Made by a program: the position numbers and the translations under genes. 34,580 bases of DNA from assembly GCF_024346135.1 (NCBI RefSeq), contig NZ_JAGQCJ010000020.1:1-34580 (forward strand). Reading direction: 5' to 3'. Under the pieces are notes generated by a model. The model was not told where the DNA came from, did not search any database, and saw only the letters and a program-made list of their open reading frames with translations. Below, one piece after another: positions 31,275 to 33,099 of this stretch; the first letter of the stretch is position 1, and every line of letters starts with the position of its first letter. The DNA comes from Cyanobium sp. CH-040. Lineage in GTDB: Bacteria > Cyanobacteriota > Cyanobacteriia > PCC-6307 > Cyanobiaceae.

Positions 31275-31347
31275 GGGGACAAGGGAGGGGCGACCGGCAG
31301 GGGACCTGGCCGGGACTGCGCGGCAGTGAAGAGAAGCGGCAGCCATG

Positions 31348-31373
31348 AAAAAACCCCGGCCGGTGGCCGGGGG
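31348..31373 (-). terminator. intrinsic terminator of the porin gene
   Basis: On the minus strand CCCCGGCC-ACC-GGCCGGGG (31372-31354) forms a perfect 8-bp stem followed by six T (31353-31348). It lies about 110 nt past the porin stop and is a classic Rho-independent terminator. Confidence 0.88.
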
Positions 31374-31481
31374 CGGAGGGAGGACGACAACGAGGAAGTG
31401 TGTGCCGAAAGGTGTGAGAAGAGGAAAGCCGGAAAGGACCCGGAGGTGTGTGTGAGGAATCCGGACCCGATCCCGCGTGGA

Positions 31482-32951
31482 TCAGAACTTGAAGGTGGTC
31501 TTGAGGAGACCGCCGAAGGTGTCGTCGACACCGGAGTTCTCGAGCCAGAAGAAGGCGGGGGTCACGCTGATGTTGTCGGTGACCTGCCACTTGTACCAGA
31601 GCTCAACGCCCAGGTTCTCCTGGCCGCTGCCACCGCTGTTGCTGTCAACCCAGAGGCTGGCGGTGCAGATGGCTCGGGCACAGTTGCCACGGCCGACCTG
31701 GCCCACACTGCCGATGGCGGCGCCGAGGGCGTTGCCCTGCATGAAGGCGTCAGCCCACTGCAGGCCCACCATCCAGCTCCAGGCTTCATCCACGGGCCCG
31801 CTGCTGACATCGGAGTAACCGAAGCCAGCGCTGATCGAGGGAGCCCAGGCAGCGGTGAAGGGCGACCAGTAGGCGCTCAGACCGATGTTGTTGCTCTCAC
31901 TCAGGCCGAGGAAGTCGAAGTCGGCGTAGGTGTAGGCGAAGGCCGCACCCCAGTTCTCGCCGGCATAGCCCACCTGAGCGGTGACGGTGAAGTCTTCACC
32001 AGCGCCGATCGAGGAGTTCGAGGCGGCACCGCCGCCCTGGCCGTCGAAGGAGACGTAGTTGAGGCTGGCATTGAAGCCACCCTCAGGGGCCTTGTACATG
32101 ATGCCGACACCGGCACCCAGGTTCAGGTTGTAGGCGGCCTGCGCACCGGCGTAGGTGAACAGGTCGAGGATGGTGTCAGCCGGATAGGCGGTGGGCCACA
32201 TGGCGAGCATGTCGTCCTGCCGCACCTTGGCACCCACGGTGGCGGTCCAGGCCTCGCCGATGGGGAACTGGTAGAAGAGACGGTTGATCTCGACGGAATC
32301 AGCACCGGAAGCGCCCTCGAAGGCGACTTCCATCAGGGTGTTGCCGTTGCCGAACACCGAATCACCGAAGTTGCCGGCCCGCAGGGTGGTGCGCAGCAGG
32401 TCCTTGCCGGTGAAGCTGGTGTCGAAGTTCAGGCGAACGTCGTAGTTCACCGTGACTTCCTGGCCGAAGCCGGTGTTGCCGGCGCCGCCCACCACCATGG
32501 TGGCGATACCGTTCAGCTTGGTGGTGGTGGAGAACTGGTTGGCCTCCAGCTCACCCACCTTGGCCTCGAGGCCGTCGACGCGGCCCTTGAGCACGGCCAG
32601 TTCCTTCTCGAACTCGGCCATCAGGCGCTTGAGCTCGTCGGTCACCTCGGTGACGCGGTCGAGACAGGCATTCAGGAGAGCGGCCGCCTCGAAGCGGGTC
32701 ATGGCCCGCTGGCCCTTGTAGGTGCCGTCGGGGTAGCCGGCCACGCAGCCGTAGCGCTCGATCAGGTTGGAGAGCGCCTGGTAGGCCCAGTCGGTGGGCC
32801 GCACGTCGGAGAACTGGGAGATGCTGGTGACTTGCTCCTCGGAGGCGTACTGGTTGACGCCGTCCAGGTTGACCTCAGCAGCGGTAGCGGCCATGGGGGC
32901 CAGCAGACCGAGCGCCGCGGGAGCAACCAGCAGTTGCTGGAAGAGTTTCAT
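31482..32951 (-). CDS. SLH-domain porin (Som / iron uptake porin type)
   Basis: A 489-residue outer membrane protein. A signal peptide (LLVAPAALGLLAPMAATAAE) is followed by an SLH domain (about 45-100: DWAYQALSNLIERYGCVAGY and FEAAALLNACLDR). Next comes a coiled-coil spacer (EVTDELKRLMAEFEKELAVL) and then an OprB-like beta-barrel ending in Phe (KTTFKF), as expected for BAM-assembled porins. The SLH domain anchors the barrel to cell-wall polymers. This family is the major porin of picocyanobacteria (SomA/SomB) and overlaps the proteins annotated as iron uptake porins; whether this one passes iron is open. The start is the ATG at 32951 with GAGGA 7 nt before it. The RBS carries a 9-nt match to the complement of Yfr1 sRNA. 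An intrinsic terminator is at 31348-31373. Confidence 0.95.
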   Translation of the reverse strand: MKLFQQLLVAPAALGLLAPMAATAAEVNLDGVNQYASEEQVTSISQFSDVRPTDWAYQALSNLIERYGCVAGYPDGTYKGQRAMTRFEAAALLNACLDRVTEVTDELKRLMAEFEKELAVLKGRVDGLEAKVGELEANQFSTTTKLNGIATMVVGGAGNTGFGQEVTVNYDVRLNFDTSFTGKDLLRTTLRAGNFGDSVFGNGNTLMEVAFEGASGADSVEINRLFYQFPIGEAWTATVGAKVRQDDMLAMWPTAYPADTILDLFTYAGAQAAYNLNLGAGVGIMYKAPEGGFNASLNYVSFDGQGGGAASNSSIGAGEDFTVTAQVGYAGENWGAAFAYTYADFDFLGLSESNNIGLSAYWSPFTAAWAPSISAGFGYSDVSSGPVDEAWSWMVGLQWADAFMQGNALGAAIGSVGQVGRGNCARAICTASLWVDSNSGGSGQENLGVELWYKWQVTDNISVTPAFFWLENSGVDDTFGGLLKTTFKF

Positions 32952-32958
32952 GGAGTGT

Positions 32959-32967
32959 TCCTCACAC
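32959..32967 (-). promoter_or_regulatory. porin RBS with complement to the Yfr1 sRNA motif
   Basis: The mRNA reads GUGUGAGGA here, the exact complement of UCCUCACAC, the core of the unpaired conserved motif of the cyanobacterial sRNA Yfr1. The site includes the Shine-Dalgarno (GAGGA) and lies 7 nt before the porin ATG, so pairing would block translation. Yfr1 is known from work in Prochlorococcus to repress porin mRNAs; its gene is not in this window. Confidence 0.65.
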
Positions 32968-32971
32968 AGAA

Positions 32972-32984
32972 GGCGCAATGCGCC
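32972..32984. promoter_or_regulatory. inverted repeat in the porin leader
   Basis: GGCGCA-A-TGCGCC is a 6-bp perfect inverted repeat just upstream of the RBS. It could be an operator or an RNA structure; CACA-G-TGTG at 32988-32996 is a second, smaller palindrome next to it. Confidence 0.3.
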
Positions 32985-33099
32985 GACCACAGTGTGCGGC
33001 CTTGCCCCGCTGGTCACCACCCCCCCTGTGACAGAGAGCACAATGACCCCTGGCGGGTGCCCCCTGATTGGGGTTGGAAGGGTGTGGTTGGAAAACGAT

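Follow-up and report, generated by a model that had tools for sequence, protein, structure and literature searches.

Repression of som porins by the small RNA (sRNA) Yfr1 in Prochlorococcus MED4 is the closest described relative of the system reported here. Yfr1 (Rfam RF01116) has been described as almost universal in cyanobacteria and lies mostly between guaB and trxA (PMC6778093), and its repression of the porins PMM1119 and PMM1121 of MED4 was reported with a reporter in Escherichia coli (PMC6778093, PMC6974561). For MED4, a reporter test on a porin is stated, and Nostoc porins are named as predicted targets within work that tested 11 targets (PMC6974561). In MED4, Yfr1 also pairs with Yfr2 (PMC6778093), beside which lies Yfr10 (PMC2518516). 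The sRNAs of the Yfr10/Yfr18 type carry the core in a hairpin loop atop a stem, with little else conserved (for Yfr10, PMC6778093). Two parallels come from other bacteria, as follows: icaR of Staphylococcus aureus, in which a pyrimidine motif (UCCCCUG) of the 3' untranslated region (3'UTR) is complementary to the message's own Shine-Dalgarno sequence (PMC3868564), and OppZ and CarZ of Vibrio cholerae, which involve negative feedback of a 3' end on its own translation and for which processing by RNase E was shown (PMC7398697).

The stretch analyzed here is a piece of DNA of 34,580 nucleotides (nt) from Cyanobium sp. CH-040 (contig NZ_JAGQCJ010000020.1, positions 1 to 34,580; the window in what follows). 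It contains a som-type porin gene whose mRNA carries a complement of the Yfr1 core over its Shine-Dalgarno sequence and a copy of that core in a stem-loop behind its stop codon. With the MED4 system it shares the sRNA core, the kind of porin and the pairing with the mRNA, which is predicted here, and it differs from it in the Yfr1-like core of the porin's own 3'UTR. This 3' element resembles the Yfr10/Yfr18-type sRNAs in its layout and differs from Yfr10 in its place, in a porin 3'UTR before a terminator. Compared with icaR, sequence and organism are unrelated, and the porin motif is displayed in the loop of a covarying hairpin and corresponds to the sequence of a trans-acting sRNA; compared with OppZ and CarZ, the likeness is a possible feedback of the 3' end on translation of its own message. 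The reading that we favor, with a probability of roughly 0.6, is that Yfr1 represses the porin at the ribosome-binding site (RBS) and a Yfr2-type RNA acts as a decoy, with the porin 3' element contributing negative feedback, either in trans, like Yfr10, or in cis, like icaR.

The porin leader and its complementarity to Yfr1

The gene and its leader motif are as follows:
31482..32951, minus strand: coding sequence of a som-type porin of 489 amino acids (MKLFQQLLVAPAALGL...KTTFKF) with SLH and OprB domains (Pfam PF00395 and PF04966)
32959..32967, minus strand: GUGUGAGGA, the complement of the Yfr1 core, over the Shine-Dalgarno sequence and 7 nt from the ATG

The domain search for SLH and OprB identifies the gene as a som-type porin, the kind of target expected in a Yfr1-som circuit. 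Its leader is ordered GGCGCAUUGCGCC-UUCU-GUGUGAGGA-ACACUCC-AUG; on the DNA, GTGTGAGGA occupies 32959-32967 of the minus strand and is followed by ACACTCC and by an ATG with its first base at 32951. The 9-mer GUGUGAGGA pairs perfectly with the Yfr1 core UCCUCACAC. A preliminary description of this DNA had placed an exact complement of the Yfr1 core at this RBS, within 32951-32967 and with the ATG 7 nt further on, and the sequence confirms both the complementarity and the span. Its reading of the leader is supported by the sequence; what it overlooked is the Yfr1-like stem-loop of the porin 3'UTR and a Yfr2-type RNA that carries the same 9-mer. The 9-mer occurs twice in the window, against 0.22 expected from dinucleotide shuffles, and the second copy, at 31450-31458 of the plus strand, reads UCCUCACAC on the porin strand.

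The Yfr1 gene, whose presence the preliminary description had left to be checked, was found as the only match to RF01116 in the genome (62.4 bits, E value of 6.4e-12), with the full core ACUCCUCACACC. Within the RNA, CACACUCCUCACACC is predicted to be single-stranded, between the two hairpins. The gene, with ACUCCUCACAC as its core, adjoins trxA, and the open reading frame (ORF) upstream was named guaB by eye. Leader and Yfr1 linker are predicted to form a duplex of 9 base pairs (bp) at −16.0 kcal/mol, compared with 4 bp and −5.6 kcal/mol for the leader and an assumed 3' end of 16S rRNA. Opening the leader site is predicted to cost 6.2 kcal/mol, and opening the Yfr1 core 0.2 kcal/mol.

The 9-mer contains GAGGA, an ordinary Shine-Dalgarno core (GAGGAN{3,12}ATG matches 658 times in this genome and 198 times in the reversed control), and could be merely a strong RBS inherited within the porin family, its complementarity to Yfr1 being incidental. 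This explanation is improbable given the short predicted duplex with 16S rRNA and given that the GUGU lies outside the Shine-Dalgarno core and is yet kept while spacing and surroundings vary. With GTGT in front, the GAGGA pattern is found only twice. The pattern GTGTGAGGAN{3,12}ATG has 2 matches in 2.9 Mb and 0 in the reversed control, and both are leaders of som porins, that of the window and a second on contig C19. By our own estimate, a raw count of 2 for the GTGT-prefixed pattern is about what base composition would give, and YCCTCACAC is not enriched in this genome (15 places, against 20 in the reversed control). Counts alone were therefore dropped as evidence, which rests instead on the location of the sites: what chance does not explain is that both GTGT-prefixed sites belong to porins and that the motif is conserved across genomes. 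Nine TCCTCACAC sites exist in the genome; six of them belong to Yfr1, the Yfr2-type RNA (as its complement), two porin leaders (likewise as complements) and two porin 3'UTRs. Several porin genes of this genome are cut at contig ends. A third porin leader (contig C10) contains UUGUGAGGA, with 8 bp to Yfr1, and the 5' fragment of a fourth porin (contig C15), the start of which is uncertain, has no leader motif.

Conservation was read in 79 porin loci of named genomes, collected by protein similarity from the best 80 of 115 relatives; where the protein match began after residue 1, the start was set by script. Within 30 nt of the start, GTGTGAGGA is present in 45 of the 79 loci, GTGTGAGGT in 7 and GTGAGGA in 1, and 26 have none of these. 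The 9-mer is thus kept in orthologous leaders, as the preliminary description had proposed to verify, and it is found before MKLFQ-type porins throughout the family. RBS complementarity in orthologs, as expected of a Yfr1-som circuit, has exceptions in the lineages g9 and g11 and in genome G025. The motif tracks the N terminus of the porin more than its overall identity: L016, 73% identical, starts with MFLRLRR and lacks the motif, whereas L084 and L089, 47% and 44% identical, carry it. Judged by the porin, Cyanobium sp. Prado107 (L011; 91% identical) is the closest of the named relatives. Most of the 26 loci without the motif have other N termini, the exceptions being L052 (MKLFQQLQVAP, with a decayed motif), L086 and L087 (N termini partly similar) and L027 (5' end cut).

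Across 151 genomes of the family (59 genera), the leader pattern with a gap of 1 to 12 nt has 395 matches, against 73 in the reversed control, and is present in 136 genomes. Thirty loci were read, one per genome; 18 are som porins with the 9-mer (32 to 51% identity) and 12 are not porins. In 119 distinct leaders, which were collected by the motif itself and so do not measure how well it is conserved, the distance to the ATG ranges from 1 to 8 nt, and a perfect upstream stem of at least 5 bp is found in 108 (49 in mononucleotide shuffles), with 78 different stem strings, some of them overlapping alternatives of one hairpin. The varying gap and the turnover of the upstream stem show that the motif persists through changes in its position and surroundings. 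In L153 (genome G090), L154, L155, L150 and L164, two to four som porins stand in tandem, each preceded by its own GUGUGAGGA leader.

The 3' stem-loop and further elements around the porin gene

Four elements lie behind the stop codon of the porin, all on the minus strand:
31436..31468, minus strand: 3'UTR stem-loop with a 9-bp stem, GGGUCCGGA/UCCGGGUCC, and the loop UUCCUCACACACACC containing a Yfr1-type core (from the predicted fold; covariance model match of 25.2 bits)
31450..31458, minus strand: copy of the Yfr1 core, UCCUCACAC, in the loop of this stem-loop, starting 23 nt after the stop codon
31412..31418, minus strand: second CUCACAC of the same 3'UTR, outside the stem-loop (from sequence and fold)
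31348..31372, minus strand: intrinsic-terminator-like CCCCGGCC-ACC-GGCCGGGG-U6 (from sequence and fold)

The stem-loop GGGUCCGGA-UUCCUCACACACACC-UCCGGGUCC begins 13 nt past the stop codon and is followed by a CU-rich stretch and the terminator-like hairpin with its six U. In its loop, UUCCUCACACA (31459-31449, minus strand) is complementary over 11 bp to the porin's own leader, and the predicted duplex of −18.0 kcal/mol is stronger than that of the leader with Yfr1. The 3'UTR motif is thus complementary to the message's own Shine-Dalgarno sequence, as in icaR, and the predicted cost of opening the loop is 0.02 kcal/mol. The best Rfam match in 31300-31500 is RF01116, at 31425-31470 of the minus strand, with 19.7 bits, below the gathering score of 38.

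In the named genomes, CTCACAC is present in the 3'UTR of 21 of 50 porins that have the leader motif and a readable 3' side and in 0 of 25 that lack the motif. L027, with CTCACAC in its 3'UTR, was excluded from the second group as its 5' end is cut; with it the count would be 1 of 26. Dinucleotide shuffles give a mean of 2.5 and a maximum of 7 in place of the 21, and the antisense strand gives 0. The density of CTCACAC is 5.3 per kb in the 3'UTRs, compared with 0.07 per kb in the flanking DNA, which is mostly coding. In minimum-energy folds, 19 of the 22 named loci with CTCACAC (the 21 and L027) display the core in a loop closed by an extended stem, the hairpin-loop layout of Yfr10; L038, L062 and L068 have it without a surrounding extended stem. 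An unbroken helix of at least 7 bp encloses 17 of 27 3'UTR sites, compared with 16 of 118 control sites from these loci.

The stem of the 3' element covaries. A first test found 97 of 104 pairs intact, a value reached by 0 of 100,000 shuffles, even with L037 set one base out of register and scored at 3 of 8. In ten ungapped training hairpins, chosen for their common 8-13-8 layout, pairing holds in 97.5% of the cells, with a covariation score of 0.783 (shuffles, 0.235). In an alignment of 36 model matches (30 distinct), biased towards the model because it was fitted to it, pairing holds in 97.1% and the covariation score reaches 0.926, compared with 0.253 for shuffles and at most 0.189 for slid controls. 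The covariance model omits L053, L054, L039 and L037, the arms of which fell out of register in the aligner, and the window, L011 and L027, which have longer loops; its matches do not include L012, L014, L037, L038, L053, L054, L062, L063 and L068.

Searched against the 151 family genomes, the hairpin model (R1) gave 34 matches at an E value of 0.1, in 33 genomes and 9 genera. Loci were fetched for all but four, and in 24 of these 30 the hairpin starts 15 to 58 nt from a som porin stop codon on its own strand, counted from the first base of the codon (plus or minus one base for minus-strand loci); at an E value of 0.01 this applies to 20 of 21. The 24 include five training hairpins (L239, L240, L241, L243 and L244) and the window itself (L263), and the matches that do not stand behind a porin, L251, L261, L262, L265, L267 and L268, were counted as misses. 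Two of these, L261 and L262, together with a second place in genome G064 (C1:330810-330835), are stem-loops of the form GGGCCGC-ACUCCUCACACC-GCGGCCC with no porin in the locus; they belong to genus g10, in one genome as two copies, and may be candidate Yfr10-like RNAs.

An element that works only within its own mRNA, the 3'UTR folding back on the Shine-Dalgarno sequence, would have icaR as a published precedent (PMC3868564) and would suit the 11-bp complementarity, stronger than that with Yfr1. Another porin lies downstream in the same locus at 13 of the 24 porin matches, however, so that pairing in trans would be as easy as in cis, and we consider an exclusively internal action rather unlikely. 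The two modes are inseparable by sequence because the leaders of the paralogs share the motif. In most of the loci inspected, the hairpin stands shortly before a terminator-like hairpin and a T run, where it might serve as a stabilizer or as a helper of transcription termination, its loop sequence a by-product. This is highly improbable: the loop CCUCACAC is conserved and the stem sequence free, the opposite of what a stabilizer needs, and CTCACAC is not found behind the stop codon in the 25 porins without the leader motif.

The Yfr2-type RNA of this genome is the single match to Cyano-1 (RF01701; 48.3 bits; L174, contig C3:24631-24703, plus strand), a family that we take to be Yfr2. Near its 5' end it contains GUGUGAGGAGU, which includes the 9-mer of the porin leader and is an 11-letter complement of the Yfr1 core; it shares this 9-mer as a free RNA and not as an mRNA leader. 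The pairing of Yfr2 with Yfr1 in MED4 is the published parallel (PMC6778093). The 5' end of the Cyano-1 RNA is predicted to pair with the porin 3' loop at −19.2 kcal/mol, a little more strongly than the leader pairs with this loop (−18.0 kcal/mol), and in MED4 Yfr2 was reported to bind Yfr1 and Yfr10 and thereby keep them from pairing with ppa mRNA (PMC6778093). On these grounds the 3' stem-loop might act on the sRNA network itself, by binding the Yfr2-type RNA and so freeing Yfr1 or by adding to the Yfr1 pool. We judge this clearly unlikely, since the element stands behind som porins and, in the named set, only where GTGTGAGG is present in the leader (21 of 50, compared with 0 of 25; L027 excluded), which points to the porin leader as the partner; moreover, the predicted cost of opening the Yfr2-type site, 6.2 kcal/mol, equals that of the leader. 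A further TCCUCACACCC lies in this genome outside ORFs of at least 150 codons (L090; C1:128378, plus strand) and possibly marks another sRNA.

A search of the literature on Yfr1, Yfr10, som porins and the sRNAs of Synechococcus and Cyanobium found no Yfr1-like element in porin 3'UTRs; supplements and most subscription papers lay outside this search, and the verified Yfr10 of Synechococcus WH8102 in PMC6778093 might be the same element.

Two further features lie upstream of the leader motif:
32972..32984, minus strand: leader stem-loop GGCGC-AUU-GCGCC, directly 5' of the RBS motif
33027..33042, minus strand: palindrome TGTGN8CACA (TGTGCTCTCTGTCACA), upstream of the leader

The palindrome, which resembles an operator of the CRP family, lies some 90 nt ahead of the som start in 22 of 51 loci with the leader motif and in 0 of 27 others (0.03 of 51 expected from shuffles); L021 has four such palindromes in tandem. 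The leader stem is often swapped in relatives for other stems of differing sequence. Its structure is kept in many stem sequences and is possibly a stabilizer of the mRNA 5' end; the som mRNA of Prochlorococcus is reported among the longest-lived (PMC2897979).

Lineages without yfr1 and evidence to the contrary

A Yfr1 match is present in 119 of the 151 family genomes and in 82 of the 95 of good quality. By this count, 13 good genomes would have no match, the absence being deduced for three of them; the number is too high, since G025 has a core. G013 gave no true trxA match by which to locate the gap. In G025 (L202, L175, L187 and L195), the core ACTCCTCACACACC lies between guaB and trxA and was missed by the Rfam model. 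A contingency test (5 of 7 against 8 of 88) was given no weight, since it used the uncorrected genome list and related genomes are not independent.

In 6 of 6 genomes of genus g9 (L208 to L213), the gap between guaB and trxA is shortened and without a Yfr1 core, which makes this genus a natural Yfr1 deletion lineage. Its porin leaders read GUGUGAGGUU in three cases and GUGUGAGUUU in one, with the exact 9-mer in 0 of 4. In g11, no core is found in this gap in 3 of 3 genomes, and 5 of 7 leaders depart from the 9-mer. These changes fit a relaxed selection after the loss of Yfr1 in two lineages (g9 and g11), an interpretation that a third, g39, contradicts. Over the three lineages without yfr1, 10 of the 17 leaders read depart from the 9-mer, which again argues against a merely inherited RBS, although the GUGUGAG persisting in 4 of 4 leaders of g9 would suit one. 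A compensatory sRNA was sought in g9 with AACCTCACAC, which gave 7 places in 6 genomes; three are porin leaders, and the other four, compared by position only, gave no sign of a shared site. Named loci of the L028 type, with a GGT leader, were considered as members of the yfr1-less g9, for which the similarity of their porin DNA gave no support.

Several observations weigh against the proposed Yfr1 circuit with 3' feedback. In lineage g39 (2 of 2 genomes), the gap between guaB and trxA is without a Yfr1 core, yet 5 of 6 leaders carry the exact 9-mer, g11 retains it in 2 of 7 without a core in the gap, and G025 has a Yfr1-type core in this position and the 9-mer in 0 of 3 porin leaders read. 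The leaders of g39 and G025 show that the tie of the 9-mer to Yfr1 is not strict, and both would be compatible with the inherited RBS. A Yfr10-type RNA may, by analogy, substitute where Yfr1 is absent (g39 and g11); Prochlorococcus SS120, considered to be without Yfr1, is reported to have Yfr10 (PMC6778093). The family-wide count of the leader pattern includes non-porins, the 12 of 30 loci given above, at least two of which (L125 and L130) are yfr1 read on the reverse strand. The leader site itself would have to be opened at the predicted 6.2 kcal/mol.

The remaining points concern the 3' element, which is not general. Within 180 nt, CTCACAC is found behind 11 of 47 leader-positive porins of the family-genome loci, none of the 11 in AT-rich, Prochlorococcus-like genomes (judged by eye), so that the Yfr1 circuit can do without it. 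It is also found in 0 of the six GGT-leader loci with a readable 3' side, out of seven. In the genome of the window, a porin on contig C18 lacks the 3' element, and those on C15 and C25 have the core after the stop codon, predicted to be unpaired, outside a hairpin loop. Finally, two of the five covariation measures are weak on the model matches, the alignment of which was fitted to the model: pairs changed on both sides number 8 against 6.7 and are reached by 106 of 500 shuffles, and further pair types number 23 against 19.1 and are reached by 17 of 500.

Proposed mechanism and its meaning

The Yfr1-porin circuit is supported by the complementarity at the RBS, which is conserved, and by the Yfr1 gene of this genome. 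According to the mechanism that we propose, the single-stranded UCCUCACAC of Yfr1 would pair in the cell with GUGUGAGGA over the Shine-Dalgarno sequence and block the entry of the ribosome, and the Yfr2-type RNA, with the 9-mer at its 5' end, would serve as a decoy for Yfr1. With porin mRNA abundant, the 3' end of this message would pair with porin leaders and lower the translation of its own and of sister porins. It would do so either as a fragment protected by the terminator, that is, as a separate Yfr10-like RNA, or on the intact mRNA. A porin message with a Yfr1 complement at its RBS and a copy of the Yfr1 core after its stop codon may in this way help to shut itself off.

The porin mRNA of this clade contains a Yfr1-like core in a hairpin loop between stop codon and terminator, and its most likely role is negative feedback. 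In a wider and more tentative form, somewhat short of even odds, the som porin 3'UTR of Cyanobium and Synechococcus would encode a Yfr1 mimic that represses its own and sister leaders and competes with Yfr1 for the Yfr2 decoy; the abundance of porin mRNA would then act back both on porin translation and on the Yfr1 network as a whole.

Since the leader is conserved, the Yfr1-porin circuit can be predicted throughout the family. The 3'UTR stem-loop would represent a conserved example of an mRNA that carries both the target site of an sRNA and a mimic of the sRNA that reads this site. If the 3' element acts, it would offer a simple model for how the total amount of porin is set and how its paralogs are balanced against one another.

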